Source of the DNA: an uncultured Saprospiraceae bacterium
Lineage (GTDB): Bacteria; Bacteroidota; Bacteroidia; Chitinophagales; Saprospiraceae
DNA length: 35,595 nucleotides
NCBI GenBank assembly: GCA_905480605.1
Contig: CAJQRD010000018.1
Coordinates: 1-35,595, forward strand
Reading direction: 5' to 3'
Below are positions 1-30,158 of this stretch, piece after piece. The position numbers were made by a program, and so were the translations under genes. Position 1 is the stretch's first letter. Each line of letters begins with the position of its first letter. Under the pieces are notes generated by a model, which worked only from the letters and a program-made list of their open reading frames with translations, was not told where the DNA came from and did no database searches.

Positions 1-117
1 AATTATACAATCAGAGCAATCTTATTGATAGTCTATATCGTCATTGTTTATTTTATACTCAAAAGATATAAGAAATCACTGTTTCCAAATTCGAAACTAA
101 AAATGCTTGCAGTATAA
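1..117 (+). CDS. C-terminal end of an unidentified membrane protein (cut by window edge)
   Basis: Frame 1 is open from the first base to a TAA at 115-117 and gives 38 residues. A run of about 15 hydrophobic residues (AILLIVYIVIVYFIL) is followed by a basic stretch (KRYKK), as in a final transmembrane helix with a cytoplasmic positive tail. The family cannot be named from so little sequence. The start lies outside the window. It converges with the minus-strand operon that ends near 138-425. Confidence 0.45.
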   Translation, partial: NYTIRAILLIVYIVIVYFILKRYKKSLFPNSKLKMLAV

Positions 118-15738: not shown

Positions 15739-15750
15739 ATATGGGCATTT

Positions 15751-16186
15751 CGTTTTCTCTCACAGAGTTCTCAGAGGGAACACACGGAGTTTCACAAAGA
15801 TAGTACTCTAATGTTGAACCACTTGTTAATCGTTGACATTGTTAACATTTTTGACATTTCTTTTATCTCACAAAGTTCTCAGAGGGAACGCACAGAGTTT
15901 CACAAAGGGAGTAATCTAATGTTGAACCACTTGTTAATTGTTGACATTTCGTTTTCTCTCACAGAGTTCTCAGAGGGAACACACGGAGTTTCACAAAGAT
16001 AGTACTCTAATGTTGAACCACTTGTTAATTGTTGACATTTCGTTTTCTCTCACAGAGTTCGCAGAGGGAACACACGGAGTTTCACAAAGGGAGTACTCTA
16101 ATGTTGAAACACTTGTTAATTGTTGACATTTCCTTTTCTCTCAAAGAGTTCGCAGAGGGAACGCACAGAGTTTCACAGAGAATGAA
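15751..16186. repeat. Five tandem copies of a ~91-bp repeat
   Basis: Copies start at about 15751, 15860, 15950, 16041 and 16132. Each has a core (CACAGAGTTCTCAGAGGGAA, then CACACGGAGTTTCACAAAG) and a tail with CTAATGTTGAACCACTTGTT and GTTGACATTT. Copy 1 has an 18-nt longer tail and copy 5 is partial. Cores differ at few positions (TCTCAG or TCGCAG, ACACGG or GCACAG). The core resembles CTCTGTG-rich repeats often dispersed between genes in Bacteroidota. The units are too long and too similar throughout to be a CRISPR array. Confidence 0.85.
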
Positions 16187-16193
16187 GTCATCA

Positions 16194-19112
16194 TTACAAC
16201 AGTAAATCTGCTAGGTCTTCTCTTGTTAAATTAGCAAATTCTTCTGCTTCTAAAAGATCAGCTGACAACATTGTTTTTCTTGCTTGTAATTTAATTATTT
16301 TTTCCTCTAATGTATCTTTTGAAATGAATCGCATTACTGTAACTGGATTATCCTGCCCAATTCTGTGTGCTCTGGCAATGGCTTGTTCCTCTATAAATGG
16401 ATTCCACCACGGGTCTAAAATAAAAACGTAATCCGCTTCGGTCAAGTTTAGGCCTACCCCACCAGCTTTTAGAGAAATTAAAAATACACCACAGTCACTA
16501 GATGTTTGAAATTGCTTAACGGCTTGCTCTCTTTTTTTGGCTGTTGTTTGTCCTGTGATCTTTGCGAATTCTACTTTAGTGTCAACCAAGTAATCTTCAA
16601 CCAATTTTAGGTGAGAAGTAAATGCTGAAAAAATCAATACTTTATTATTTGATTTCAAAACGCCTTCCAACTTATCTTTCACAGCATTAAATTTCCCAGA
16701 GTCACTGCTGTAATCCTCTTGAAATAATTTAGGGTGATTTGCTATTTGTCTCAGATGCAAAAGTGACTTTAAAACATGCATGTTGTAATCACTAGCGTTT
16801 TCGTCCATATCTAAGAGGTAATTGCGAATTGCATTTTTCTCTTTTTTATAAACCTCTTCTTGATCATCAGACATTGTTACATATTCGATGTGCTTTGTCA
16901 GAGGAGGAAGGTCCTTAGCGACATCTTTTTTTCTACGTCGCAGAATAAACGGCTGAATCATCGTTTTTACATCTTGCAAAACAGCTTCATCTTTGTGTTT
17001 CTCTATGGGTGTTTTGTAATACTTCTTGAAAAAATTAAAATCACCCAGAATATTGGGATTTACGAATTCCATTTGACTCCACAAATCTGATAATGAGTTT
17101 TCGATTGGTGTCCCTGTCAATGTTAGCTTGTTTTCAGATTGCAAACTTGACAAAGCTTTAAAGGATTGAGAATCTTTGTTTTTAATCATATGACTCTCAT
17201 CCAGAATTATGTAATTCCAATATATCTTATTTAATTTTTCAACTTCAATTCGGGCTACACCATAAGTTGTCAATACAATATCAAACTTATCTAATTTGGA
17301 ATAAAAATCTTTACGACTAGTTCCTGTAAATCGAATTGTTTGCAGCCTAGGACTAAACTTTTGTATTTCATTGTACCAATTGAAAACAAGTGAAGAAGGT
17401 AAGACAATCAATGTCTTTAACGGTCCGACAATTTCTTCTATGGGTGCACCAAACAGGTCCAATTGTCCTTGCCCAGAATCATTACCAGATGGTTCTTCTT
17501 CAACTTTTAAATTGTCTTTGGTATAATTCAACAATGCTAAAGTTTGCAAAGTCTTTCCCAATCCCATATCGTCAGCTAAGCAAGCTCCCATCTTATTCAG
17601 CTGGTGTTTGATCAACCACTTCACTCCTTCTACTTGATACGGTCTTAAGGTTGCTTTTAAATGCTGGCTTGGTTTGTAGTCAAATTCCAGTTCGTCGACA
17701 ATATACACGTCTGGTGAAAGGCCTTCGTCTTTCAGCTCATCAAGAATCATAAAGTTGCTTCGCTGAATTTTAAATCCTGCCTTTGTCTTTTCAGCAAAAT
17801 TAGCAAGTTTGCTGTATTTAGCCATCCAAGTTTGGGGGATAATAAAATATGTCCCGTCAGGCAATAAGAAAAATCTATCCTCTGCTCTTATATTGTTTAG
17901 CAAATCCAAGAAAGGAATTTCGAAATCACCAAGAATAACAAATCCTCTCAACTCAAACCAATCAATTTTTTCTTCAGATTGCAAGGCGATTGATGCATCT
18001 TCAAGTGAAACCAACTTATCTCTCAGCTTAGGCATTTGAATTTCGAATCCTGCCTTTTGAAGTATATCAAAATTTTTAGCAATCCAATAAATTATTTCAA
18101 ATGAATCTTCAGCTTCTTCAACCAATTCAAAATAATTGGCCGATGTCAATTGCAATCCTAATTTAAGAAGTTTATCGACATACAATTGTTCATCTTCTGA
18201 CCTTTCAATTTTTACAATATCAATCTCATCATTCTCACCAAAACGCAACTTTGATTTTTGTCTGGCTGGATGTTGAAAAGAAAATACAGCATCATCGTAA
18301 TAAAATGTCAGTTCAATAATATGGTAATCATTCACAAAGTCTTTATTGACTTTAATTTCGACTTTAAGAATATGATTGGAAACATTGACATCAAAACCAC
18401 GGGTGTTGATTTCAAGCTTTGTTGCCATTTGTAAAATGAACTTCTCAAAATAAACTTTAGTAGAACGCGCTGGAATTAACACAGCATCCTTTTTAAGAAA
18501 TGGTTTCAACTTAGCAGTGTTGATATGCGATACTGCAAATAAGTTGTAATCCATAATTATCCAAGCAGGATCATTGGTACAAAGGTGGGTGTCATGATTA
18601 AAGCAAGCCATAGTTTTGTCACCATGTCTCAACCTCAATTGATAATCAATACCAGCTCCCAATTTACTGAAGTTTAATATTGGCTCTAGTGGTTTGTGCA
18701 TGGTTGTTATTCTTATAGTTTCCAATTCCACTTTCCTTACCACTTCCAAACACAAAGGCAAATCATAATTCCTAATGATTGTCAACAGTTCATCAATATT
18801 TCGATCTATGTATTTATTGACAAGAGAGGCCTTGTCCTTCTCCTTATAAAGGTCTTTGATTTTCTTTTTACGCTTCCCTTTTCCACTATATTTACTCTCT
18901 AAGGATTCGATTGACAACAATTCAATCAAGTCGAGTGCATTTTGGTGATGATTATCACAAACTACAGAGCTATAACTTTCAACTGTTACAGCAGTAGCCT
19001 TGGCTTTCATGTAGCCCAAGCCTTTGGGAGTGAGCTCTCCAAGATATGCATTTGGCAGATACCGTTGAATATCCTCGATGTAGGTTAAGTTAAAAACAAT
19101 CGTATACTTCAT
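16194..19112 (-). CDS. SNF2-family DEAD/DEAH-box helicase
   Basis: The 972-residue Snf2/Rad54-type ATPase has Walker A ADDMGLGKTLQTLALL near residue 512 and the DEAH-type box DESHMIKN near 637. TLTGTPIENSLSDLWSQ (motif III) comes next, and the C-terminal helicase domain has AGGVGLNLTEADYVFILDPW and IARAHRIGQ near 885-910. Snf2 proteins move along double-stranded DNA and displace bound proteins; bacterial ones help RNA polymerase recycling or DNA repair. The N-terminal 480 residues resemble the SWIM-less long bacterial Snf2 group and have no named domain that I recognise. It is a single gene with a promoter 7 nt before its ATG, and the 91-bp repeats lie just beyond its stop. Confidence 0.95.
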   Translation of the reverse strand: MKYTIVFNLTYIEDIQRYLPNAYLGELTPKGLGYMKAKATAVTVESYSSVVCDNHHQNALDLIELLSIESLESKYSGKGKRKKKIKDLYKEKDKASLVNKYIDRNIDELLTIIRNYDLPLCLEVVRKVELETIRITTMHKPLEPILNFSKLGAGIDYQLRLRHGDKTMACFNHDTHLCTNDPAWIIMDYNLFAVSHINTAKLKPFLKKDAVLIPARSTKVYFEKFILQMATKLEINTRGFDVNVSNHILKVEIKVNKDFVNDYHIIELTFYYDDAVFSFQHPARQKSKLRFGENDEIDIVKIERSEDEQLYVDKLLKLGLQLTSANYFELVEEAEDSFEIIYWIAKNFDILQKAGFEIQMPKLRDKLVSLEDASIALQSEEKIDWFELRGFVILGDFEIPFLDLLNNIRAEDRFFLLPDGTYFIIPQTWMAKYSKLANFAEKTKAGFKIQRSNFMILDELKDEGLSPDVYIVDELEFDYKPSQHLKATLRPYQVEGVKWLIKHQLNKMGACLADDMGLGKTLQTLALLNYTKDNLKVEEEPSGNDSGQGQLDLFGAPIEEIVGPLKTLIVLPSSLVFNWYNEIQKFSPRLQTIRFTGTSRKDFYSKLDKFDIVLTTYGVARIEVEKLNKIYWNYIILDESHMIKNKDSQSFKALSSLQSENKLTLTGTPIENSLSDLWSQMEFVNPNILGDFNFFKKYYKTPIEKHKDEAVLQDVKTMIQPFILRRRKKDVAKDLPPLTKHIEYVTMSDDQEEVYKKEKNAIRNYLLDMDENASDYNMHVLKSLLHLRQIANHPKLFQEDYSSDSGKFNAVKDKLEGVLKSNNKVLIFSAFTSHLKLVEDYLVDTKVEFAKITGQTTAKKREQAVKQFQTSSDCGVFLISLKAGGVGLNLTEADYVFILDPWWNPFIEEQAIARAHRIGQDNPVTVMRFISKDTLEEKIIKLQARKTMLSADLLEAEEFANLTREDLADLLL

Positions 19113-19119
19113 GGGACGG

Positions 19120-19127
19120 CAAAAGTA
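19120..19127 (-). promoter_or_regulatory. -7 element of the SNF2 helicase promoter
   Basis: TACTTTTG on the minus strand matches TAnnTTTG exactly and ends 7 nt before the ATG at 19112. The same octamer stands 8 nt before the bamD ATG. No good -33 TTG is seen at the expected distance. The transcript would be almost leaderless. Confidence 0.5.
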
Positions 19128-19224
19128 AGAAAAAGGGCAATTAAGTTCTTATCATCATTATTATATAATGATGTTATTATTTATAATTAATGCAAATTGC
19201 ATTGTTTAAATGAAAAATTAAATA

Positions 19225-19430
19225 CAACTTATTTATATCTTGCCTCGCCGGCACTGCTTTCATTTTTGTCATTGCCACAAAAACGAAACAAAAAAGTCTA
19301 GGCTGTCTGTATTTCTTAACGGCCGAAAACATTTAAAATCCTAAACAACGGCAAACTCGCTTTCTGCTCAAACATGCCTTTGTTTTTTAACGGATTTAAA
19401 ACTTTTTCAACCTAAAATTCAGAATGCCAT
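19225..19430. other. Intergenic sequence that looks like a dispersed Bacteroidota element
   Basis: This part of the 410-bp gap 19113-19522 is less AT-rich and carries runs such as CTTGCCTCGCCGGCACTGCT and a short hairpin (TTTTTGT, 7-nt loop, ACAAAAA). AACGAAACAAAAAAGTCTAG and repeated AACGG words follow. I see no valid gene on either strand. Similar text is familiar to me from intergenic regions of other Bacteroidota, but this was not searched. Confidence 0.35.
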
Positions 19431-19522
19431 TTCACTATCTCGTAATAATCCTCATTTTAATTAGAATCTTTATGTTCAGTACAAAATACGATATTCAACT
19501 ATCTTCAATATTTACATCAACG

Positions 19523-19560
19523 CAAAAAAAAGCAGCTTCAAAATTGAAACTGCTTTTTTA
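19523..19560 (-). terminator. Bidirectional intrinsic terminator after tRNA-Thr
   Basis: AAAAAAGCAG and CTGCTTTTTT, extended by TTTC/GAAG pairing, form the stem, with a T run on each strand. It begins 2 nt past the tRNA 3' end on the minus strand, so it ends the tRNA transcript. Confidence 0.75.
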
Positions 19561-19561
19561 G

Positions 19562-19635
19562 AGCCGATGAAAGGATTCGAACCTCCGACCCGCTGATTAC
19601 AAATCAGCTGCTCTGGCCAACTGAGCTACATCGGC
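19562..19635 (-). tRNA. tRNA-Thr (anticodon UGU)
   Basis: The 74-nt minus-strand sequence folds as a tRNA. The acceptor stem is GCCGATG/CATCGGC, the D arm is GCTCAGTTGGCCAGAGC, and the anticodon stem GCTGA/TCAGC holds the loop TTTGTAA. The T arm is GGAGGTTCGAATCC-like. The anticodon TGT reads ACA (Thr). CCA is not encoded, and the discriminator base is T. Confidence 0.95.
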
Positions 19636-19985
19636 TTAAACTATATTGGGATGGTCATTTAAATAGATATTAAAATTCCTATGAACTCTATATCGATTTT
19701 CATCCCTATTAGAGCGCAATAATATAAATAACTTTTTTTATTGCCTAGTGTTCTGAGAAAAATAATTGGCAAAATCATGACTATTTTTGAGAAGGATTCT
19801 ATAAATTGAATTGGATATTTTTTTGATTATTTGTACAAGACTCAATATCAATCTGTTGGAGGACTGGCTGATCCAAATCTTTAAATAAAGCAACAATCAC
19901 CAAACATGAAAAAAATCTCATGCAATCCCTTTTAGCACCACATATAATTACATTGTAGTTTTATTGATATGTAATTACCAATAAG
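19636..19985. other. 350-bp gap with an AT-rich hairpin after the polyamine operon
   Basis: TAATTACAT (19945-19953) pairs with ATGTAATTA (19969-19977), just after the stop of the deoxyhypusine-synthase-like gene. It may serve as a weak 3' end of the long operon, but it has no clear T run. The rest is upstream sequence of the tRNA gene, and I see no gene in it. Confidence 0.4.
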
Positions 19986-20960
19986 CTACCACCCTAATAT
20001 CCAAGCAAAAACCAAAGGTGCCACTATTGTAGCATCACTCTCAATAATAAATTTTGGTGTTTCTATTTCGAGCTTGCCCCATGTGATTTTTTCATTAGGT
20101 ACTGCGCCTGAATAAGATCCGTAACTCGTTGTACTATCGCTAATTTGACAAAAGTATGACCAGCAAGGGATATTATCCATACCAAGATCTTGATGTAACA
20201 TTGGAACCACACAGATTGGGAAGTCTCCAGCAATTCCTCCACCTATTTGAAAAAAGCCCACACCATTTAATCCTCCATTTGATTGATACCATTTTGAAAG
20301 CTCCATCATATACTCAATTCCACTTTTCATTGTAAGTGAATTTAATTTTCTTTCGATACAATAACTAGCGAAAAAATTACCACATGTACTGTCTTCCCAA
20401 CCTGGAACTATAATAGGAATATTCTTTTGGGCTGCTGCAAGTAACCAACTGTTTTTAGGGTCAATTTGATACTTATCTGCTAGCTCTCCGCTTAGCAAAA
20501 TCTTATAGAAAAATTCATGAGGCAAAAACCTTTCTCCTTTATTTTCAGCATCCTTCCAAGCATCAAACAAGTGTACTTCAATTCTCCTCATCGCTTCCTC
20601 TTCTGGAATGCACGTATCAGTCACTCGATTAAAATGTTGATCAAGTAACGTTTGTTCTTCTTGAGGTGACAAATCACGATAATTTGGAATCCTCTTATAA
20701 TGATCATGGGCAACCAAGTTGAAAACATCTTCCTCAAGATTCGCTCCTGTACAAGTAATAATATGTACTTTATCTTGGCGGATCATCTCTGCAAGAGACA
20801 AACCCAATTCAGCTGTACTCATTGCTCCAGCTAGAGTGATCATCATTTTATTGCCCTTCTTCAACTGCTCTTCATAAGCTTTTGCCGCATCAACCAACGC
20901 AGCAGCATTAAAATGACGGTAATGATGTTCTATGAATTTAGATACTGGCCCTCTGTCCAT
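19986..20960 (-). CDS. Deoxyhypusine-synthase-like protein (NAD-dependent aminobutyltransferase)
   Basis: The 324-residue protein has the NAD-binding fold of deoxyhypusine synthase: ITLAGAMSTAELG at 41-53, TCTGANLEEDVF at 69-80, IPIIVPGWEDSTCGN, GGGIAGDFPI and a conserved Lys296 in ITWGKLEIE. That Lys matches the residue that forms the enzyme-imine intermediate (AVSWGKI in eukaryotes). Eukaryotic DHS moves the aminobutyl part of spermidine to eIF5A. Bacteria have no eIF5A, and several bacterial homologues make homospermidine or related polyamines. It is the last gene of an operon with arginine decarboxylase and agmatinase, which supports polyamine synthesis. The true acceptor is unknown. Confidence 0.88.
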   Translation of the reverse strand: MDRGPVSKFIEHHYRHFNAAALVDAAKAYEEQLKKGNKMMITLAGAMSTAELGLSLAEMIRQDKVHIITCTGANLEEDVFNLVAHDHYKRIPNYRDLSPQEEQTLLDQHFNRVTDTCIPEEEAMRRIEVHLFDAWKDAENKGERFLPHEFFYKILLSGELADKYQIDPKNSWLLAAAQKNIPIIVPGWEDSTCGNFFASYCIERKLNSLTMKSGIEYMMELSKWYQSNGGLNGVGFFQIGGGIAGDFPICVVPMLHQDLGMDNIPCWSYFCQISDSTTSYGSYSGAVPNEKITWGKLEIETPKFIIESDATIVAPLVFAWILGW

Positions 20961-20980
20961 ATTTTTTATTTTATTTAATT

Positions 20981-21766
20981 CTAAAATATTTGATCGATTA
21001 TTACATGGATTACTTCAAACAATATTAACCAGATAATAATCCACTCCAAGTTACTGCTATGCTGATGCATATTCATATCTTTAAAAAGATCAAGATTTTC
21101 GTGAATAATATTTAACTGCTCTTTTATTGCATTATATCTATACTTAATCTCAAGGTCGTCATTGAGATGTGCATCAATCAAATTAATACTTTCGTTTTCA
21201 TAAGCCATCATAGGTGTATTAAAAACAAATAGATTTTCACTTATTTTATTTTTTATGTTAAGTGTTGAACCAATATACTGCATAAGCTTTTTCCTTTTTA
21301 AGGATACTTTACCTTTTAATTCAAGCTCATTGGTATACTTTTTAGTATTTTCTAATAAGGCATCAGATAGAGATTGATAATGAAACAATGCCGCAGATTG
21401 TGCCAAGTTGAGACAAATAATATGTACAACCTCAATATTTAGATTTTCTACGACAAGTTCATCATATCCTTCCACTTTTAAATTGGAATCAACTATAATA
21501 GAAATTTCATCTGAAGCTGGCGACAATTCTATACCCAAAATTTCATTTAGCTTAATAAGTGTTTCATTTTTGGTATCAGCATTGAAGCCAAAAAAAGTTA
21601 TTCCTCCATAATCCTTCAAATAAAGATAAACATCAATGCCCAATTGATACAATAAAAAACTCTTTTCCCGTTTTACCAGTTTACCAAAATCATTTCGAGC
21701 TACGATCTTGCTTAAAAAAAGTCTGGATGTACTGAATCTAGCTTCAGCTTTATATCTGCTTCCCAT
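20981..21766 (-). CDS. RMD1/DUF155 family membrane protein
   Basis: The 261-residue protein fits the RMD1/YagE (DUF155) family. It ends in one C-terminal membrane helix with the family pattern (HSSNLEWIIIWLILFEVIHV, residues 237-256), preceded by helices with a KYRYNAIKEQLNIIHENLDL segment. The middle has a strand-rich part (YGGITFFGFNADTK). Homologues occur in yeast and human (RMND1, needed for mitochondrial translation) and in many bacteria; no biochemical activity is established. It sits between agmatinase (1-nt overlap) and the deoxyhypusine-synthase-like gene (20-nt gap), so it is co-expressed with polyamine enzymes. I infer a link with polyamines only from that. Confidence 0.75.
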   Translation of the reverse strand: MGSRYKAEARFSTSRLFLSKIVARNDFGKLVKREKSFLLYQLGIDVYLYLKDYGGITFFGFNADTKNETLIKLNEILGIELSPASDEISIIVDSNLKVEGYDELVVENLNIEVVHIICLNLAQSAALFHYQSLSDALLENTKKYTNELELKGKVSLKRKKLMQYIGSTLNIKNKISENLFVFNTPMMAYENESINLIDAHLNDDLEIKYRYNAIKEQLNIIHENLDLFKDMNMHQHSSNLEWIIIWLILFEVIHVIIDQIF

Positions 21767-22620
21767 TATTCAAAAAATTTATAGGAAAGCATTTTATAAT
21801 ACAACTTGGCTGCTAGAAATTGAGAAGCCTTATGTCCTGTAATTGGTGCCAATTCAACAATATCAAAACCGACCACATTTCTTTCTGCAAACACACGCTT
21901 AAGAAAATTAATCACCAAGTACCAATCTAAACCTCCTGGCTCTGGTGTTCCAGTTGCAGGTAGAATTGATGGGTCAAAAGCATCAAGGTCTAAGGTGATA
22001 TATACATTGTCGGTGATAACATTCATTGCCTCATCTCGCCACCTTTCATTCTGTTTTAATTTATCTGCAAAAAACACCTTGTTATAATCCATGTGTTCTT
22101 TTTCGGAAATATCCATACTGCGGATTCCGACTTGCACCAGGTTGCAATTTTTACTTGCATCATATACTGCACATGCATGATTGTAAGCTGTACCATCATA
22201 ACTGTGTCTCAGATCAGCATGGGCGTCTATTTGCAATACTGTTAAATCTTCAAAATGTTCGTAATGTGCTTTGATTGGGCCAATACTTATACTGTGCTCT
22301 CCCCCAAAAAATGTTAAAAATTTGTTTTCCTTTAGTAGGGCTTTTGTTTTATGATACGTGTAGGCAAACATCTCTTCTGGGGAGTTAAATTTAGGAGCCT
22401 CTGGTAAAATATGAATTCCTTTTAAGTAAACTTCTGAATTTGTTTCTATATCATAAAGCTCCATATTTTCAGCCGCATCCATAAACGCTTCAAATCCTTT
22501 GTCTGCTCCTTTTCCCCAAGTACTCGTGCCATCATAAGGAATAGATTGCAAATAAATCGCTGAATTTTCCTTGACGGCAAATTGATCCTCAATACCTGCA
22601 AATGTTTTCATTAATCTCAA
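21766..22620 (-). CDS. speB: Agmatinase (ureohydrolase family)
   Basis: The 284-residue protein has the manganese motifs of the arginase/agmatinase fold: FGGEHSISIGP at about 105-115, IDAHADLRHSYDG at about 131-143 and LDLDAFDPSILPATGTPEPG at about 209-228. It should hydrolyse agmatine to putrescine and urea. It follows arginine decarboxylase by 16 nt, which supports agmatine rather than arginine as substrate. A second ATG three codons in (22611) is an equally good start. Its stop overlaps the RMD1-type gene by one base. Confidence 0.9.
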   Translation of the reverse strand: MRLMKTFAGIEDQFAVKENSAIYLQSIPYDGTSTWGKGADKGFEAFMDAAENMELYDIETNSEVYLKGIHILPEAPKFNSPEEMFAYTYHKTKALLKENKFLTFFGGEHSISIGPIKAHYEHFEDLTVLQIDAHADLRHSYDGTAYNHACAVYDASKNCNLVQVGIRSMDISEKEHMDYNKVFFADKLKQNERWRDEAMNVITDNVYITLDLDAFDPSILPATGTPEPGGLDWYLVINFLKRVFAERNVVGFDIVELAPITGHKASQFLAAKLYYKMLSYKFFE

Positions 22621-22636
22621 TATTTATTCTAAATAA

Positions 22637-24043
22637 TTAATACCCCAAGATATCAAGCATTTCATCAACCGTTTGTTCATTTCGATATACATAGTCAACA
22701 TAGTTACCTGTTTCATCTCTGTCAATTACTATCATTTTCGGTGAAGGAATAAGACAGTGTTTAATACCGCCATATCCACTTATTGAATCTTGATAAGCAC
22801 CTGTATGAAAAAAGCCTATGTACAAGGGTTCTTTATCTTCTGATGAATATTTTGGCAAGAAGAGTTTTTGATTCATATCCTCTGAATTATAATAATCGGA
22901 ATGATCACAACTGATACCTCCAATATTAACTCTTGTATATTCGTTGTCCCATTTATTAATAGGAAGCATAATGAATTTTTCGTTTATGGACCAAGCATCA
23001 GGAATCGTATTCATCAAGCTATTGTCAACCATGTACCATGTTTCAGCATCATTTTGAGCCTTTTGCTCAAGTACTGAAAAAATAGTAGCTCCACTTTCCC
23101 CGACGGTATACTTTCCAAATTCAGTAAAAATATCTGGTTCTTCAATATTGGCTTCTCGACAAACTGAAGCAATATTCCCTACTAACTCGTTGATGATATA
23201 TTCATAATCGTAATCAAATCCAAGGTTATTTCTAATTGGGAATCCACCTCCCAAATCTATAGCTTTCATTTCTGGGCATTCTATCTTTAGATCTACAAAC
23301 AATTTCATTGCTTTTTGAAATTCGCCCCAATAATACATATTGTCCTTTATTCCAGAATCGATAAAAAAGTGTAGCATTTTCAAACTAATAGTTTCATCGC
23401 CTCTAATCTCATCTTTGTAAAAGTCAATAATTTCATTGGCCCGGATACCCAATCGAGAAGTATAATATGCTGTTTGTGGTTCTTCATCGATTGCCATTCT
23501 CACCCCAATTTTAAGAGGCTTTTCAAGACCCTTAGCATATCTCTTAACACGTTTCAATTCTGACTTAGAATCTAGGATTAATATAGAATTGTAAAAACCA
23601 TCTTTATTTAGTCTGGCAATCTTTTCAAGATAATCTTCAGTCTTATATCCATTATGAATTATAATTATCTTTTTGTTAATTTTATTTTCTTGGTGAAGCT
23701 TATAAATCAAGTCTATATCAAAAGATGAAGAGGTTTCCAATTGTATGCCTTCCTTCACTGCCGCTTTTACAACATGTGAAAAGTGGCAGCACTTGGTACA
23801 ATAAGCATAATGGTATTGCCCCTTATATTTATTTTTTTTAATAGCCCGACGAAAAAGATTCTTAGCCTTCTTTATCTGTTCCCCTATTCTAGGTAGATAC
23901 ATAAGCTTAAAAGGTGTCCCATACTTCTCCACAAGATGCTTGAGTGATACTCCATGAAAAGTCAGGTATCCATCCTTTAGATCAAAACCTTCTTGAGGGA
24001 AATAATAACTTTGATCTATCAGATCGAAATAAGTGTTTTTCAT
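22637..24043 (-). CDS. speA: Biosynthetic arginine decarboxylase, short Bacteroidota type
   Basis: The 468-residue PLP enzyme has the alanine-racemase barrel fold. Probable PLP Lys84 is in AYCTKCCHFSH, the glycine-rich loop is DLGGGFP at 263-269, and TEFGKYTVGESGA stands for the phosphate-binding EPGR region. The second catalytic element is ISCDHSDYYN (Cys379, Asp380), and GAYQDSISGYG closes the site. It is shorter than E. coli SpeA (about 660 aa), as usual in this phylum. It converts arginine to agmatine, and agmatinase is next in the operon. A related decarboxylase specificity (for example ornithine) is possible, but the agmatinase neighbour argues for arginine. Confidence 0.88.
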   Translation of the reverse strand: MKNTYFDLIDQSYYFPQEGFDLKDGYLTFHGVSLKHLVEKYGTPFKLMYLPRIGEQIKKAKNLFRRAIKKNKYKGQYHYAYCTKCCHFSHVVKAAVKEGIQLETSSSFDIDLIYKLHQENKINKKIIIIHNGYKTEDYLEKIARLNKDGFYNSILILDSKSELKRVKRYAKGLEKPLKIGVRMAIDEEPQTAYYTSRLGIRANEIIDFYKDEIRGDETISLKMLHFFIDSGIKDNMYYWGEFQKAMKLFVDLKIECPEMKAIDLGGGFPIRNNLGFDYDYEYIINELVGNIASVCREANIEEPDIFTEFGKYTVGESGATIFSVLEQKAQNDAETWYMVDNSLMNTIPDAWSINEKFIMLPINKWDNEYTRVNIGGISCDHSDYYNSEDMNQKLFLPKYSSEDKEPLYIGFFHTGAYQDSISGYGGIKHCLIPSPKMIVIDRDETGNYVDYVYRNEQTVDEMLDILGY

Positions 24044-24047
24044 TTGG

Positions 24048-24275
24048 CTAATCTAATTTCTTTTTCTTCTTTATTTTAATCGGAACTATTTCATCCATAT
24101 CATCTTCTAACCAATGATTTTTATGCTTATACTTCACCTTTTGATCAGCATTTTTTCCTCGATTACCTAAGTCCCATTCTTTGTCTTTTGGCTTAGGTGA
24201 TAATTCTTTTTTATGATTCTTTTGATGTTTCATTATACAATTTTGTAAAGCAATTATAAAATTATTATTTTTCAT
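24048..24275 (-). CDS. Small Lys-rich protein, unknown function
   Basis: The frame gives 75 residues; an internal ATG at residue 15 (24233) would give 61. About a third of the residues are Lys (KNADQKVKYKHKNHWLEDDM, then VPIKIKKKKKLD at the end). It has no signal peptide and no membrane helix. It ends 4 nt before speA, so it belongs to the polyamine operon. A palindrome at 24286-24299 lies just before the longer start. It is not a family I recognise. Its company with a deoxyhypusine-synthase-like enzyme raises the question whether one of its lysines is modified, but nothing in the sequence shows that. Confidence 0.6.
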   Translation of the reverse strand: MKNNNFIIALQNCIMKHQKNHKKELSPKPKDKEWDLGNRGKNADQKVKYKHKNHWLEDDMDEIVPIKIKKKKKLD

Positions 24276-24285
24276 AAAGAGTTCT

Positions 24286-24304
24286 CCAAATTAATTTGGT
24301 CACA
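24286..24304. promoter_or_regulatory. Palindrome CCAAATTAATTTGG joined to a TGTGACCAAA motif
   Basis: CCAAATTAATTTGG (24286-24299) is a perfect 14-bp palindrome overlapping TTTGGTCACA (24295-24304). It lies in the 58-bp gap before the Lys-rich gene, the only long gap in the nine-gene block. It may be an internal regulatory site or an mRNA stem. GGTCAC words recur at several other gene borders in the window. Confidence 0.4.
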
Positions 24305-24333
24305 AAAATTAAAATTCTTTATATCTAAATAAG

Positions 24334-24753
24334 CTATTTGTAATCTTCGTTTATACTTGACTCATCAACAACATCTTCATTTAAATCATCTATACTTATA
24401 TCACCATTATTTCCTAAATCATTATCTTCATTGTCATTGTATTCATCTAGGAAATCCTCATCATCATATTTAACAGCTAATTTCGATTGAACTTTTGGTT
24501 TAAGATTGCCATTATCATCATAATCATCATCTTCAGCAATCACGAATATTGCTTCTTCAACTGTCATACGAATAAGATAATACTTTTCTTCTGTTTCAAA
24601 AGGCAGACCTTTTCGCTTTTCACCACCTTTCCCTGTGAAGGTAATAAGGTGTTCACGGAATCCTTTAGGGTAAACAAGTTTGATTTGCTCTAAGGTTTCT
24701 TCATTGAGTTTGTCATAGTCCTTAATGACTTTGGGTTTGTTTTTAGTTGACAT
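24334..24753 (-). CDS. Acidic-tailed hypothetical protein, conserved-looking N-terminal half
   Basis: The 139-residue protein has a folded-looking N-terminus (VIKDYDKLNEETLEQIKLVY, then PKGFREHLITF and KGLPFETEEKYYLIRMTVEE) and a C-terminal tail after about residue 75 rich in Asp and Glu (DDDYDDNGN, EYNDNEDND). I have seen this kind of N-terminus in short Bacteroidota proteins without a role. It lies 16 nt after the AstE-like gene and 58 nt before the Lys-rich gene. The acidic tail and the basic neighbour could bind each other, but this is a guess from charge. Cytoplasmic, no signal. Confidence 0.7.
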   Translation of the reverse strand: MSTKNKPKVIKDYDKLNEETLEQIKLVYPKGFREHLITFTGKGGEKRKGLPFETEEKYYLIRMTVEEAIFVIAEDDDYDDNGNLKPKVQSKLAVKYDDEDFLDEYNDNEDNDLGNNGDISIDDLNEDVVDESSINEDYK

Positions 24754-24769
24754 TTTTATAAAATTAGAG

Positions 24770-25744
24770 TTATTTTAATATTCCTAGATGAAGGATTCTG
24801 CCACCTGTTTGATTAACAGGACTGATACTTTTACCAATGACAATTCCATCATGAGGAGAAAAATATTCTTTTACTTTCTTACCAAATATATCTCTTAACA
24901 CAGCGATGAGCTCACCTTTTTTAACCATTTGTCTTAATTCAACTGGTATAGTTAAAATTCCTCCAGCGTCCGTATAAATCCAAAGGCTTCTTTTACATAA
25001 GACAGTTTCATTTTCAGTGGTCATTATTTCATCTTGGATCATGTTTAAATCACATAAAACATTATGTATACCATGTATACCACTTCTTATAAGTTTCTTT
25101 TGAAAGGTACTGGGATTACCTACCTCGAGAGTTATCGCAGGAATATCTAAGTCATCAGCAGCCCCTCTCAATGTTCCATCAGAAGGAGGATTATGTACTA
25201 TGATATCAGCGTTTTGAAGTTTTGCCATTCTCTTTACTTTTGGCAAATCCATATCAGCTCTTATATAATAGCTATTGATCCTTCCAGTACTGGCTGTATG
25301 CAGATCTAAAAGGAAGTCAATATGCTTGACAAATCTATTGACAAATCGGTAAGCATAGACTTGACTTAAGTTTCCATCTTCTTTACCAGGCATAATATGG
25401 TTGATATCTACCCCATCATTAAACCTTCTTTTCTTTCTCACAAATGCAGGTACATTTACAACAGGAACTCCAACTATCGTACCTGACAACTCATCAACCG
25501 ATACTTCATTGAAAAGTCTTTGAATAACCGAAATCCCATTTAGCTCATTCCCATGGACAGCAGCGGTAACTCCTAAGACTGGTCCATCTTTCATTCCACG
25601 CATAACCATTACTGGAATACAAATTGGATTTGAGAATCCATCTGAAATCAACTCTAACCAATAATGCCTTTGTGTTCCTCTTGGAGTATCTTCTAAATTG
25701 AAGTTCTCTATGATTGGAATGTCGTTATTTGTATTCATCTGCAT
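24770..25744 (-). CDS. Succinylglutamate desuccinylase / aspartoacylase family amidohydrolase
   Basis: AstE/AspA enzymes are zinc carboxypeptidase-like hydrolases that free an amino acid from an N-acyl group. The metal ligands are visible: AAVHGNELNG (His and Glu) and DLHTASTG (His). The catalytic Glu is in AITLEVGNP. The C-terminal beta domain ends with DGIVIGKSISPVNQTGGRI. ATG 25744 or 25738 are likely starts; the frame is open to ATG 25762. All three overlap the preceding ligase gene, which ends at 25725. In Bacteroidota and Proteobacteria this family is often found beside ATP-grasp ligases, where it may trim the product. The substrate here is unknown. Confidence 0.85.
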   Translation of the reverse strand: MQMNTNNDIPIIENFNLEDTPRGTQRHYWLELISDGFSNPICIPVMVMRGMKDGPVLGVTAAVHGNELNGISVIQRLFNEVSVDELSGTIVGVPVVNVPAFVRKKRRFNDGVDINHIMPGKEDGNLSQVYAYRFVNRFVKHIDFLLDLHTASTGRINSYYIRADMDLPKVKRMAKLQNADIIVHNPPSDGTLRGAADDLDIPAITLEVGNPSTFQKKLIRSGIHGIHNVLCDLNMIQDEIMTTENETVLCKRSLWIYTDAGGILTIPVELRQMVKKGELIAVLRDIFGKKVKEYFSPHDGIVIGKSISPVNQTGGRILHLGILK

Positions 25745-26726
25745 ATTCAAATATTTTATCAATTGTCATTTTAATAATAGGTTTTCCCGATTGCTCCTGG
25801 GCTTGTGAGAACCCTCCAACACTTAGTGTATTTACTTCTGACAGGATTCTCTTTCCGTAATCATCTTCAAGAGTATCTGCCCCAAAAATCAAAACACCTT
25901 CTTTTATTAATTCGGGCGTTAAACCCTTTACTATTTTTATTTCTTCATTAGTAACATCTGCCTTTACAGACTTACCGCCTTGTGCCACATTGCATAACCA
26001 AGAACCTTCAGCTGGAAGTCTTAAAGAACTTGCCATGATCTGGCCTCCAACCACCAATATGCGCTTATCCCCTTGACTTACATTTTTAAGATACTTCATA
26101 GCCAAGAAACCATCAGTTGTGAGTTCTTCATTTACACTTTCTAAATAAATTTCTAAATCAATTTCCCTATCACCAATATCAACAGTCTTATCTACTATTC
26201 TGACAATTCCCTTTCCACCATATTCTTTTAATGGCTTCAATACAATTGGGTATTTTTTACTCATTTTCAACACATCTTCCTTGGAATTGCACAGCTGTAT
26301 ATCAGGACACAAGTCTGGAAAATTAAGAAGATATTTTTTATTACTTGTCTTAATAATACCATGTGGATTATTGATGAATACTTTATCTTTTGCAACTTCA
26401 CCCAACCACTCTAACCAATCATCACCAATAGGTCTTGGCAGTCTCATGAAAACAATATCATAATCTTCTAAATGTAAATTTGAAAGACCACTTTTATAAT
26501 AAGAACCATCTTGAGAATATTTAAATGCTTGATCAATACTATTTCCAAAAATGTTAGAAGCATCCCGATTCTCGAAAAATGCTTTATTCTCTATAATACC
26601 TCTAGACGCTATATCGATTCCCTCACACTTCTCGTGTCCTAGCATTTCATTCAAAATAGCATAGATTGAATTTTGAGCACTATGACCATTATGATCAGTT
26701 AAAACAAGAATTTTATATTTTATCAT
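25725..26726 (-). CDS. ATP-grasp ligase, glutathione-synthetase (GshB/RimK)-like
   Basis: The 333-residue protein has a preATP-grasp domain (ILVLTDHNGHSAQNSIYAIL) and an ATP-grasp core. The core has PIVLKPLKEYGGKGIVRI at about 160-177, RILVVGGQIMASSLR at 222-236, WLCNVAQGG at 243-251 and the metal-binding SEVNTLSVGGF at 296-306. Such enzymes make amide bonds through an acyl-phosphate, for example glutathione synthetase. No gamma-glutamylcysteine ligase (GshA) is present, so glutathione is not assured as the product. Its start overlaps the previous gene by four bases (ATGA) and its end overlaps the AstE-like gene. Confidence 0.85.
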   Translation of the reverse strand: MIKYKILVLTDHNGHSAQNSIYAILNEMLGHEKCEGIDIASRGIIENKAFFENRDASNIFGNSIDQAFKYSQDGSYYKSGLSNLHLEDYDIVFMRLPRPIGDDWLEWLGEVAKDKVFINNPHGIIKTSNKKYLLNFPDLCPDIQLCNSKEDVLKMSKKYPIVLKPLKEYGGKGIVRIVDKTVDIGDREIDLEIYLESVNEELTTDGFLAMKYLKNVSQGDKRILVVGGQIMASSLRLPAEGSWLCNVAQGGKSVKADVTNEEIKIVKGLTPELIKEGVLIFGADTLEDDYGKRILSEVNTLSVGGFSQAQEQSGKPIIKMTIDKIFEYADEYK

Positions 26727-28174
26727 TGACTAATTAAGATTTCATCCAATAAAGTCGGATCGTTGTTTAGTGACTTGAAAAGCTTCATTCTGAATTTACC
26801 TTTGCTATTATAAAGAGTCTTGCACATTTTGTCGATTGCAATTGTTGATAGAACTGTCTGGATAAATCCTTCTATCAAGTCATCTAGTCCAAGTCCAAGT
26901 TTGTTAAAATCTCTTCTATCTGTCAACATCAATCTATTCGTATCAGAACTCCATAGATTATCACCTTCTTTAACTGAAAGGTTTGTTCCTAGCATGCTCC
27001 AACTATCAGAACCAGACTGCAAGGTATCCGCCAATGGTTTTTCTGCTCTACGTGAATAAACGCAAAGAGGTTTGATTCCATCTTTTGTTGAACTCAACAT
27101 AAGCCGAAGATCCGTAACATATGTTTCTCCTTTGCCATTAGGGATAGTTCCTACATGATAGAATTTACCAGTAGAACTGACAGATGACCAATTGTAGTTT
27201 CCAATAAGGCTTTGTACAATAAATCGTTCATACTCAATATCCATTTCCATGAATGTCTCGAGTTCCTTTTCATTGGTAATTGTAAAAACACCCTGTCCAG
27301 CATTGCTGTATGGAATTTTCACAACAGCTTGTCCACCCATCTTCATAACCCAAAGTGGGATTTCATTTTTACTTACATCCCAAATAGTCTCGGGCGTATT
27401 TATTTTAAGCCCATAACCTTCCAACTCAGTATTGTAAATGTCATAGGCTTTAGCAGCAACCATTTTATTTCTTCCCCCAGCAATACAGGCAATAATTGGA
27501 TTAAGTACTTTGGTCTTTGTATGCAGGGGAATTCGATTCCAAGGTTTTTGAGTCACATACCTAAATACTGCTCTTATTGGGTGCCAAATATCTTCAACTT
27601 TTACATGAATAAGATCATTTTCCACCTTGACATGGCTGTTTTCATCGCCATTATAATATGGAACCAATAAAACTTCTTCATTCATCACATCTGCAATTAC
27701 AGCAGCATATCCAGAAGTTTCCATATAGTTCTTATCATAAAGTACTACCAACCTGCCGGTTATAGATGGTACACCTTTTCTAGGACCAAGCAAAGGTTTA
27801 AAAGTTCGTTCTATTAGCAACCTATAACTGCCATCCTCTTTGTTATCGTCAACCAAAGGCATGGATTTTTGTCCTGAAGGACATGAATTATTTTCGAGAA
27901 CCACCATATTCCTTTTACCTCCAGCTGAAGTGGAATTGATAAGATCGGCACCACCCCATAGAAAGTGCTTGCATTGATAAGATAATATCTCCTCCAATTT
28001 TGCTTTATTAACCATTGGGTGTAAGTGACAATATCTTGTTATTATTCTTTCCTTAGAGAGATTCAAGAAAAAACTAACCATAGGATGTATTGTAGCATTA
28101 AGTGCTTTTGGGTACCAGTGGTTATCACTAACAAAAGAACCTGGTTTCACTTTTTCAATATTTTTAATCATCAT
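26723..28174 (-). CDS. ATP-grasp-like protein of unknown function, first gene of the nine-gene operon
   Basis: The 483-residue protein has a large N-terminal region with conserved-looking segments (NMVVLENNSCPSGQKSMPLV, then PSITGRLVVLYDKNYM) and an ATP-grasp-like part from about residue 230. This part has AGGRNKMVAAKAYDIYN, then QAVVKIPYSNAGQGVFTI with Lys286, ERFIVQSLIGNYNW and TDLRLMLSS. It resembles ligases often coupled with a RimK/GshB-like enzyme. The later motif that would supply metal ligands is less clear, so activity is uncertain. Both ATG codons at 28174 and 28171 can start it. It is coupled to the next ligase by an ATGA overlap. Confidence 0.7.
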   Translation of the reverse strand: MMIKNIEKVKPGSFVSDNHWYPKALNATIHPMVSFFLNLSKERIITRYCHLHPMVNKAKLEEILSYQCKHFLWGGADLINSTSAGGKRNMVVLENNSCPSGQKSMPLVDDNKEDGSYRLLIERTFKPLLGPRKGVPSITGRLVVLYDKNYMETSGYAAVIADVMNEEVLLVPYYNGDENSHVKVENDLIHVKVEDIWHPIRAVFRYVTQKPWNRIPLHTKTKVLNPIIACIAGGRNKMVAAKAYDIYNTELEGYGLKINTPETIWDVSKNEIPLWVMKMGGQAVVKIPYSNAGQGVFTITNEKELETFMEMDIEYERFIVQSLIGNYNWSSVSSTGKFYHVGTIPNGKGETYVTDLRLMLSSTKDGIKPLCVYSRRAEKPLADTLQSGSDSWSMLGTNLSVKEGDNLWSSDTNRLMLTDRRDFNKLGLGLDDLIEGFIQTVLSTIAIDKMCKTLYNSKGKFRMKLFKSLNNDPTLLDEILISQ

Positions 28175-28182
28175 TTATAAAT

Positions 28183-28216
28183 TAAATATAAACTCTCTTG
28201 GTTATATTAAGGCAAA
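28183..28216 (-). promoter_or_regulatory. Candidate promoter of the nine-gene operon
   Basis: On the minus strand TTTG (28216-28213) and TATATTTA (28190-28183) are separated by 22 nt. The -7 element misses the last base of TAnnTTTG. It stands 8 nt before the ATG at 28174, the same short distance as in bamD and the SNF2 gene. It is weaker than the others. Confidence 0.35.
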
Positions 28217-28727
28217 GAGAAGAGTTACTAAAACTGGTCACAACTTATTTCAATTATTTTATAAAACCTTAACCCTATTTATCTAAGAATAATTCAAAAT
28301 TTATAATATTAATATCAATTTTATTTAACCAGTCTTTGCAATTCCAATACTTTTAAATCAATTTAAAAACCTATTGATATGAGAATCAAGCAGATACAAA
28401 TCATTTCAAGCTTTATCTTTATGTTGCAACACTATTTCAAATTATTAATTTCTACATAAGGCATAAGAATTAGGGTAAATAAAAAATTCAGATTTTATAA
28501 AAAAAACTGAAATTCATGTGACCAAATCGTACTTATATGCTCTATATATGAACTTGTAAGCCAGAACACTTAAAATGAATTGATTTTAAGACTAAGTAAA
28601 TTATAAAGGAATATTTATGAGTACCTTACTCCAATGCAAATTTTATATGCATTAATACCTGTCCCAATATATATTTTTGTAATAGTCGAGTGAATATGGG
28701 CGTTTTAACAAGAAGCAATTAACATTA
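28217..28727. other. Divergent intergenic region between the nine-gene operon and rimB
   Basis: The 511 bp hold no gene that I can support. Two inverse copies of a GGTCAC word lie here: CTGGTCACA at 28234-28242 and TGTGACCAAAT at 28517-28527. TATTTTTG at 28672-28679 is a perfect -7 match on the plus strand for rimB, without a clear -33 partner. Confidence 0.4.
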
Positions 28728-29201
28728 TTGAAATTGAAGAAAAAAATAACAATTGGAAGAAAGGATAAAGCCAATTTTCCTGAATTTGGCCTTAAGAATC
28801 TTGACATAAAAGTTGATACCGGAGCTTATACATCTTCTATTCACTGCCACAAAATTGAAAAACAGGAAAAAAATGGAAAGGTATACTTGGTATTTACACT
28901 GCTAGATCCCTCCCACCCTCAATATAAAGATCAAGAAATATCAATGGAAAAATATAAGGAAAAGAGTATCAAAAGCTCTTTTGGTAGTTTAGAAAAACGC
29001 TTTATAATTGAAACAGAAATATTACTCTTTGGGCAAAAACATAAGATAGATTTATCCTTAAGTGAACGTGGGGAAATGAAATTCCCCATTTTAATTGGTC
29101 GAAGATTTCTCAAGGGAAAGTTTATTGTAGATACTTCCAAGAGTAATCTTTCTTATAAAAGAATAAAAAGAAAATTAGGTACTAAATTAAAAAATAAATA
29201 A
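28728..29201 (+). CDS. RimB-type retropepsin-like protein (ATP-dependent zinc protease family)
   Basis: The 157-residue protein has the single-domain aspartic-protease fold of RimB (PF05618). The catalytic Asp-Thr-Gly is in IKVDTGAYTSSIHCH at about 28-42. TLLDPSHPQYK, SSFGSLEKRFII, SLSERGEMKFPILIGRRFL and KFIVDTSKSNLSYK follow, all typical. RimB family members accompany RimK, the ligase that adds glutamates to ribosomal protein S6. The start is TTG (28728, or 28734). Two bases after its stop a rimK gene begins, but that gene is destroyed, so this protein may now serve the ligases of the divergent operon or have no partner. Confidence 0.85.
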   Translation: MKLKKKITIGRKDKANFPEFGLKNLDIKVDTGAYTSSIHCHKIEKQEKNGKVYLVFTLLDPSHPQYKDQEISMEKYKEKSIKSSFGSLEKRFIIETEILLFGQKHKIDLSLSERGEMKFPILIGRRFLKGKFIVDTSKSNLSYKRIKRKLGTKLKNK

Positions 29202-29203
29202 AC

Positions 29204-30158
29204 ATGAAAATAGTCATTTTATCACGGTAAACAGCTTTGTACTCAACAAGAAGGTTGATAGAAGCAGTACCGAAAATCGGTCACAAAATGCACGTGGTTG
29301 ATCATTTAAAATGTAACATAGAAATTGAAAAAAAGAATCTTAAAATCTATTACAATGGACATTACCTAGAAAATGTAGATGCGATCATCCCACCTACAGG
29401 TGCCTCGGTTACTTTCTATGGAACGGCAGTATTGTCCCAATTTGAAATGATGAATATATTTAGTGCTTTAGAATCACAAGCCTTGGTGAGATCAAGAGAT
29501 AAACTTAGAAGTCTTCAATTGCTTGAATGTACTTGATCGGATTTACCAAAAACAATGTTCACTATTTTTTTTCATAAACGTAGAACACGTAATTGACTCT
29601 GTTTTCGGAGCTCCTGTGGTTCTAAAACTATTAGAAGGAACTCAAGATTTAGGAGTGACATATGCAGATACTCAAAATGCAGCGGGGTCTGTTATGCAAA
29701 CTTTTAATGGGCTTGAAGCTAGAATAATTGTACAAGAATTTATAGAAGAAGAAGAAGTTGGAGAAGTTGGAGACATCAGAGCATTCATTGTTGATAGAGA
29801 AATTATAGGTGCTATGAAACGTTAAGGAAAATAAGGCAAATTCAGATCTAACTTACACCGTAGAGGAAGTGCTAATATCATTGAACTCTCAGATAAAAAA
29901 AGTGAAACTGCCCTAATTGCTGCAAAGGCTATGCGACTAGGTGTAGCGGGAGTAGATATGTTGCAATCTTCATCAGGTCCTTTGATCTTAGAAGTTAACT
30001 CTTCTCCTGGTCTTGAGGGAATTGAGATAGCGAGAAGGACAGATATAGGAAAAAAATTATCAAATACTTTGAGCGAAACAAATAAAAAAAATATGACTTT
30101 ACTTGGTATAAAAATCAAGCCTTGTGGTCGTGCTTGCTTACAATTTACAAACACATGA
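29204..30158 (+). pseudogene. rimK: rimK pseudogene (S6 glutamate ligase type), four stops and one frameshift
   Basis: The remains align along the whole of RimK: MKIVILSR, ALYSTRRLIEAVPKIGH, SRDKLRSLQLL, LPKTMFT, VEHVIDSVFGAPVVLKLLEG, ARIIVQEFIEEEE, DIRAFIVDREIIGAMKR, KFRSNLHRRGSA and AGVDMLQSSSGPLILEVNSS. TAA 29228-29230 replaces codon 9, and TGA 29534-29536 replaces a codon near 111. An extra base in the T8 run at 29565-29572 shifts the frame, and TAA at 29823-29825 and 29832-29834 follow. Removing one T restores the expected spacing before VEHVID. It was surely a complete ligase gene. All three kinds of change make expression of an active product very unlikely. Confidence 0.92.

Follow-up and report, generated by a model that had tools for sequence, protein, structure and literature searches.

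A recurrent Bacteroidota gene block places two candidate ATP-grasp ligases and an AstE-like hydrolase beside polyamine genes

To our knowledge, few peptide–polyamine amides have been described, the examples being glutathionylspermidine, trypanothione, the products of YgiC and YjfC, and E-64. The glutathionylspermidine synthetase/amidase combines a ligase and a cysteine amidase in one protein, and homospermidine is made by a three-gene SpeA–SpeB–SpeY pathway. E. coli YgiC and YjfC are peptide–spermidine ligases (Pederick 2023, as cited in the portion of PMC12568646 considered here). In the fungal E-64 pathway, whose product incorporates a polyamine (agmatine or putrescine, for instance), the ATP-grasp enzyme Cp1B couples an acid to an amino acid, and another type of synthetase, Cp1D, adds the amine (PMC12568646). 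Here we analyse a 35,595-nucleotide stretch of DNA (the window) from an uncultured Saprospiraceae bacterium, in which a block of nine genes sets two putative ligases, G1 and Gs, and an AstE/AspA-like metallohydrolase (together, the trio) beside genes for polyamine synthesis. An original prediction, made from the letters of the window, had suggested that this block makes and trims a polyamine conjugate. Gene order, recurrent linkage, a predicted fold and a coupling between AstE and Gs, all computed here, lead us to propose tentatively, with confidence that falls somewhat short of even, that Gs and G1 make a peptide– or amino-acid–polyamine amide that AstE cuts; from these we infer the substrates, the direction, the product, and homospermidine as the amine in the window.

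The nine open reading frames (ORFs) that the original prediction had placed on the minus strand are all present in the ORF listing of the window, running from 28174 to 19986:

26723..28174, minus strand: G1, an ATP-grasp-like orphan of 483 amino acids, candidate amide (peptide–polyamine) ligase (fold, motifs, weak NCBIfam matches)
25725..26726, minus strand: Gs, a GshB/RimK-like ATP-grasp ligase of 333 amino acids (PF02955)
24770..25762, minus strand: AstE/AspA-like metallohydrolase with H122 replacing the motif Arg (PF24827)
24334..24753, minus strand: ACID, a small protein with a conserved domain of ~80 amino acids and an acidic tail (custom HMM)
24048..24275, minus strand: Lys-rich protein of 75 amino acids (ORF)
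22637..24043, minus strand: SpeA-type arginine decarboxylase, short form, 468 amino acids (PF02784, PDB relatives)
21766..22620, minus strand: SpeB agmatinase (PF00491, TIGR01230)
20981..21766, minus strand: RMD1/DUF155 protein (PF02582)
19986..20960, minus strand: deoxyhypusine-synthase-like (DHS-like) protein, probable SpeY-type homospermidine-forming enzyme (PF01916)

In block order the intergenic gaps are −4, −38, 16, 58, 4, 16, −1 and 20 bp, the −38 bp value hinging on a TTG start that the ORF caller assigned to the AstE gene. Searches of the nine proteins against Pfam (E cut-off 0.01, for G1 also E 1) and NCBIfam name Gs, AstE, SpeA, SpeB, RMD1 and the DHS-like protein, whereas Pfam yields nothing at E 0.01 for G1, ACID or the Lys-rich protein; G1 and ACID reach no family above cut-off in these two libraries.

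Even at E 1, G1 matches no Pfam family, PF03738 included, so that its description as ATP-grasp-like, carried over from the original prediction, rests on weak matches, motifs and predicted fold. Two NCBIfam ATP-grasp models (MptN/RimK) are weakly matched, at E 1.9e-4 and 7.5e-4, and a distant relative of G1 (locus L045) matches PF02955 at E 0.035. Across 55 aligned rows, E94 N95 N96 S97, K286, N291–G295, D355 and R357 are invariant; among them we take E94 N95 N96, K286 and N291–G295 to be the ATP-grasp metal- and ATP-binding motifs, so that the presumed metal-binding E-x-N, ATP-binding Lys and glycine-rich loop are all conserved. An AlphaFold model built from these rows (pLDDT 81.7, pTM 0.87) was compared with the PDB by Foldseek, whose first six matches were 3n6x, 9cjn, yeast glutathione synthase (three times) and YgiC (E between 1.7e-8 and 1.6e-6). 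Glutathione synthetases of potato and human rank next, and RimK-type structures appear from 1.5e-5. The TM-scores of the first six (0.34–0.45, rmsd 11–14 Å) therefore indicate a likeness of domains, not of the whole protein. Residues 71–102 of G1 match positions 244–272 of 291 in the MptN model and residues 250–325 match positions 94–171 of 276 in the RimK model, weakly and in permuted order, and E94-N95-N96-S97 precedes the ATP-binding core. This motif order and the two weak permuted profile matches suggest a circular permutation of G1; scores did not rise when the sequence was rotated, and no significant match came from comparing the profiles of G1 and Gs. The G1 profile returned just two PDB sequences, at E 0.2 and 0.32.

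3n6x, the first fold match of G1 (E 1.7e-8, TM 0.41/0.43), is itself a putative glutathionylspermidine synthase, and both the glutathionylspermidine synthetase/amidase and trypanothione synthetase-amidase pair an ATP-grasp ligase for a peptide–polyamine amide with a hydrolase. Unlike them, G1 lacks a PF03738 match, ligase and hydrolase are encoded by separate genes, and the hydrolase is AstE/AspA-like instead of a cysteine amidase. YgiC, whose solved structure 7uk8 is among the nearest folds (E 1.6e-6), has 12% identity to G1 at TM 0.38/0.45, a likeness of predicted fold. Cp1B (9cjn, TM 0.39) shares with G1 the ATP-grasp character and the fold match, and belongs to a polyamine-joining pathway, but does not itself add the amine. 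By analogy, the trio may work like glutathionylspermidine synthetase/amidase and the YgiC/YjfC ligases, though by profile G1 is no PF03738 member. That synthetase family occurs in 8 of 60 relatives surveyed, and a profile search found none in the window's own genome.

Gs is the GshB-like ligase that had been predicted, with 98.9 bits to PF02955 (cut-off 23); its 131.8 bits to the NCBIfam glutathione synthase model stay short of the cut-off of 272, and its closest solved structures are glutathione synthetase first and RimK-type ligases next. The window's own genome holds one weak partial match to GCS2 (GshA-like, 28.1 bits). AstE matches PF24827 at 117.9 bits (cut-off 25), and its nearest solved relatives include the desuccinylase/aspartoacylase 3na6 and an N-acetyl-diaminobutyrate deacetylase. 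H70, E73, H155 and E213 are kept in 68 of 68 rows; we take the H-x-x-E and the second His to be the Zn ligands and the remaining Glu to be the general base. In three aligned relatives with structures (3na6, 6twl, 3cdx) a motif reads x-x-N-R, its Arg presumably contacting the substrate carboxylate, and this Arg is replaced by His in 60 of the 68 rows, the window included.

The replacement follows the second ligase. In the set of 67 locus rows plus the window, from which AstE rows of at most 280 amino acids were dropped before counting, residue 122 is His in 60/60 rows at loci bearing Gs and Arg in 8/8 at loci lacking it, one of the latter being a distant RimK-linked AstE paralogue at L095. At further loci outside this set (11 duplicates removed; L046 is cut and unreadable) His stands in all ten readable loci with Gs and in none of four AstE beside G1 without Gs (R, R, R, A); six AstE that adjoin neither G1 nor Gs comprise two with His and four with Arg. 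Because residue 122 follows the presence of Gs, AstE and Gs probably share a product, and we infer from this sequence pattern that AstE would act on a product whose chemistry Gs changes.

The best solved relatives of SpeA are the arginine decarboxylases 3nzp, 3nzq and 3n2o, and the window protein, a shorter form, lies below the NCBIfam cut-offs (PRK05354, 175.6 of 369 bits; TIGR01273, 164.6 of 624.1 bits); SpeB exceeds the agmatinase cut-off of TIGR01230 (209.7 bits against 174.3). The last gene is deoxyhypusine-synthase-like as predicted: PF01916 scores 143.8 bits (cut-off 27), and Lys296 of its W-x-K motif is invariant in 17/17 rows and aligned with the same motif of solved deoxyhypusine synthases. 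The block thus holds the same three enzyme kinds as the SpeA–SpeB–SpeY pathway with the catalytic Lys kept, and differs in that the DHS-like protein scores 110.5 of the 450 bits set by the NCBIfam homospermidine model NF001980. SpeY, a bacterial DHS homologue, makes homospermidine (in the portion of PMC9992855 considered here), and homospermidine is therefore the likely triamine here even though that cut-off is not reached; the DHS-like protein is probably a SpeY-type, homospermidine-forming enzyme.

The association of the trio with these genes recurs across Bacteroidota. One scan of 84,980 genomes confirmed at least 513 relatives of G1, from which the best 80 loci were kept, picked by G1 and not by its neighbours; as these are the closest to the window, distant relatives are under-represented. 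Among these best 80 of at least 513 loci, AstE occurs at 74, Gs at 71, SpeA at 36, SpeB at 28, the DHS-like gene at 25 and ACID at 25, and looser thresholds gave 74, 72, 36, 30, 27 and 25, respectively. At the 26 full-flank loci, which have 9 kb or more of sequence to either side, the counts are AstE 26, Gs 21, SpeA 12, SpeB 9, DHS-like 9 and ACID 10. By our estimate chance, at one copy per ~4.5 Mb, would bring SpeA to ~0.3 locus in these 1.18 Mb. The orders G1-Gs-AstE-ACID-SpeA-SpeB-DHS, G1-SpeA-SpeB-DHS-ACID-Gs-AstE and SpeA-DHS-ACID-G1-Gs-AstE were all seen, as was a divergent arrangement of SpeA-SpeB-DHS against G1-Gs-AstE. Within another family of the same class (L156, L159) the order is SpeA-SpeB-DHS-ACID-VOC-G1-AstE, and in a further Bacteroidota family (L158) it is ACID-G1-AstE-...-VOC-SpeA-SpeB-RMD1, ended by the contig end. 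The VOC gene (glyoxalase-like, named by eye) lies between the polyamine genes and G1-AstE at L156:8200-8613, L159:8263-8676 and L158:9501-9920. The expected neighbourhood of trio and polyamine genes thus recurs, with the genes in varied order and also in two further families; SpeA and the DHS-like gene are each present at under half of the full-flank loci. In the sample of the phylum that supplied L156, L158 and L159, 10 of 392 genomes match G1, the window's own included and one only at E 1e-4.

Presence and absence were also scored over 60 relatives, 24 with G1 and 36 without, where P values are too small because the genomes are related. Gs, counted as present by a match below E 1e-60, occurs in 21/24 genomes with G1 and 1/36 others (P = 5e-12), SpeA in 23/24 and 27/36 (P = 0.04), and ACID in 15/24 and 7/36 (P = 0.001; P = 0.31 within the 37 genomes of the family). 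SpeA and G1 lie within a few kb on one contig in 12 of the 23 genomes holding both; in another genome (G007) the two genes are on different contigs, with SpeA at the end of its own. All eight named strains with G1 hold SpeA, and three, of Tenacibaculum, hold the DHS-like gene. Aureispira has the trio beside SpeA without a DHS-like gene; Lewinella cohaerens and Neolewinella lacunae also possess G1-Gs-AstE and SpeA and lack the DHS-like gene. Homospermidine is therefore not an obligatory substrate everywhere, and agmatine or putrescine may serve as the amine at loci that have SpeA and lack the DHS-like gene.

We propose the following scheme. By homology to known enzymes, SpeA would convert arginine to agmatine and SpeB agmatine to putrescine, and the DHS-like enzyme would probably make homospermidine. 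Gs would form a small peptide or amino-acid amide, G1 would couple the carboxylate of that product to an amine of the pathway, and AstE would hydrolyse the amide, making conjugation reversible. G1 and AstE would then correspond, as two separate proteins, to the two activities of the bifunctional glutathionylspermidine synthetase/amidase, and Gs would take the role of glutathione synthetase. ACID is a recurrent partner, and the stress-related genes around such loci point to osmotic or ionic stress as the setting in which the system may be used. A more novel reading, which we regard as a long shot, is a reversible polyamine-capping cycle: Gs and G1 would attach one of the pathway's amines to ACID, or to a peptide bound to ACID, and AstE in its His form would take it off again; if true, a main polyamine would be switched between free and capped during osmotic change by a dedicated ligase, eraser and acidic carrier.

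The polyamine-conjugate idea of the original prediction gains from the recurrent linkage, the predicted fold of G1 and the coupling of AstE residue 122 to Gs, and several observations weigh against it. SpeA is missing from the flanks of 14 of the 26 full-flank loci, and the DHS-like gene is found in just 9 of them; across the 60 genomes the presence of G1 and of the DHS-like gene is uncorrelated (14/24 against 18/36, P = 0.60). Three Tenacibaculum genomes keep SpeA and the DHS-like gene close together but distant from G1: the contig is a different one in two genomes, and in the third either the contig differs or the distance exceeds 200 kb. TM-scores normalised by the length of G1 do not exceed 0.42 in the Foldseek matches listed, and six of the eight genomes with a PF03738 synthase also hold G1, which is therefore no simple replacement of that enzyme. 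At the motif Arg, the AstE of the trio differs from the canonical form of its family. His122 is moreover not confined to AstE next to G1 or Gs, being present at L146 and L147, whose genomes hold Gs on other contigs. The residue needs four changes on the best tree (2–4 in bootstraps), though it may have had a single origin. Finally, AstE is missing from the neighbourhood of a distant G1 subfamily (L045:3983-5356, L157:6572-7963; 46–49% identity), whose neighbours, judged by eye, are a response regulator and a TauE/SafE-like gene.

The strongest alternative, to which we grant an appreciable chance though one well below even, is free of polyamines: the trio would make and trim some amide, peptide or not, such as an osmolyte or a stress peptide, and would share an operon with the polyamine genes because the same osmotic or ionic stress induces both. 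Its main support, and a further point against a polyamine conjugate, is the frequency of osmotic-stress neighbours. Genes for MscS-type channels are the commonest non-core neighbours, at 13 of the 80 loci (stricter clustering, these loci only, which are related to one another), where 84 copies in ~69.7 Mb of 20 relatives predict ~1.4 in 1.18 Mb; one is the same-strand neighbour of a core gene at L042, L066, L073, L074, L081, L087, L095 and L111, the Pfam search covering the L095 gene only. Genes for CorA, Usp, PPK2, CBS and GNAT-nitrilase proteins also lie near G1 loci. Ten of the loci L025–L046 and L155 repeat genomes of L047–L126, so that 'near' counts over this wider set are not of independent genomes, although none of the eight loci with an adjacent MscS gene is a repeat. 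The loci without SpeA in their flanks and the uncorrelated DHS-like presence fit this explanation as well. What it leaves unaccounted for is SpeA, whose proximity far exceeds chance, with various gene orders and three families represented, and which accompanies nearly every G1 genome with the P value, too small for related genomes, given above. The stress-gene neighbours themselves favour a role in osmotic or ionic stress.

A second alternative, which we consider improbable, is protein modification, with ACID as substrate or carrier onto which G1 (and Gs) would attach an amine or amino acid that AstE would remove. Ligases of the LysX (on LysW) and RimK (on S6) type do modify proteins, and an HMM of 26 rows found ACID at 35 of 98 distinct G1 loci, in other families too, always on the strand of G1 and at six loci directly before it (at most 31 bp). 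What had been called an acidic protein proves on alignment to be a conserved domain of ~80 residues with a variable acidic tail; its model (pLDDT 75) has no PDB fold match at E at most 0.001. LysW has a conserved C-terminal acidic motif ending in Glu, whereas the C-termini of ACID vary in length, sequence and last residue over the 26 rows, and on this ground a LysW-like carrier was set aside. ACID is also missing from the flanks of 16 of the 26 full-flank loci, a second copy lies elsewhere in many genomes of the genus, and copies stand by themselves in genomes without G1; at L134 SpeA-SpeB-DHS has ACID beside it and no G1. Among the paralogues off the operon, those at L128:7378-7683 and L131:7507-8064 are in genomes with no match to G1, SpeA or the DHS-like gene, and that in the window's own genome (L127:7960-8295) has a basic tail instead of an acidic one. 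That the DHS-like enzyme modifies a lysine of ACID or another protein in a bacterial deoxyhypusine-type reaction, the ligases being unrelated, is very unlikely indeed: the catalytic Lys is invariant and the window's ACID carries TGKGGEKRKG, reminiscent of the eIF5A loop, but this candidate hypusine-like loop is kept only in the nearest relatives (L047–L053) and in no other row, and was set aside.

A single transcript of the block is plausible. The form TTG-17..23-TANNTTTG, which we take to be that of Bacteroidota promoters, does not occur on the coding strand at 19900–28800 (0.79 expected in shuffles), and its short half TANNTTTG occurs there four times against 5.9 in shuffles. Over 19000–29500, on both strands, a sigma-70 scan gave 62 sites, near the chance expectation of 49.2 (standard deviation 8.0), and a terminator scan found two weak minus-strand sites within the block, one inside the end of the SpeA coding region and the other inside that of the DHS-like gene. 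Of the internal promoter and terminator that the original prediction had named as a way of splitting the block, these scans show no promoter of the Bacteroidota form and two weak terminator-like sites in coding ends. Two of the nine genes are less constant members than had been supposed: the RMD1 gene (PF02582, 76.8 bits, cut-off 27) recurs at 2 of the 80 loci and at L158, and the Lys-rich protein is found at 7 of the 80, the window's nearest relatives. The closest named relatives of the block are Saprospiraceae or Saprospirales metagenome-assembled genomes, with G1 identities of 85–88%.

A described neighbour of a different kind is the RimK–RimB system of ribosomal S6 glutamylation, treated with the Rlo operon (in the portion of PMC12239564 considered here). 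Gs is distantly RimK-like, and a RimB gene in divergent orientation (28728-29201, plus strand) lies immediately upstream in the window. The RimK-like stretch behind it, reaching to 30150, is interrupted by stop codons and a shift of frame and so has the look of a decayed gene; intact RimB–RimK pairs stand at L049 and L095. RimB/RimK matches occur at 2 of the 80 G1 loci and are therefore not part of the conserved unit. A defence system was also rejected: among the nine proteins PADLOC matched the Lys-rich one alone (Cas12c, E 7e-4), which we take as an effect of composition. Blocks of close relatives hold extra genes, namely a SET-domain gene in L047, a fusion of GNAT and carbon–nitrogen hydrolase in L047 and L049 and, in L049, PPK2 and CorA genes that follow the DHS-like one (the extra genes lie at L047:10797-11402, L047:12266-13792, L049:16450-17985 and L049:18951-20821). 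Outside the long genes of the window, a tandem repeat at 15746-16181 has a unit of 91 bp in 3.7 copies, which overlaps one of 108 bp in 1.9 copies.

The gene set is undescribed in the literature searched, which included portions of PMC9992855, PMC12568646, PMC11237479, PMC12239564 and PMC8939145; the 2009 amidoligase survey (Iyer et al.), which lies outside that search, may mention the trio. If the proposed conjugate pathway is true, the list of peptide–polyamine amide systems would gain a Pfam-less ATP-grasp-like family, a metallohydrolase as amidase and a Bacteroidota lineage. The tie between one residue of the hydrolase and the presence of a second ligase offers a direct, testable handle on the substrate. 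More broadly, some Bacteroidota carry polyamine genes beside two enzymes that likely make bonds and one that likely cuts them, which suggests that an undescribed polyamine conjugate is built and broken down in these bacteria.

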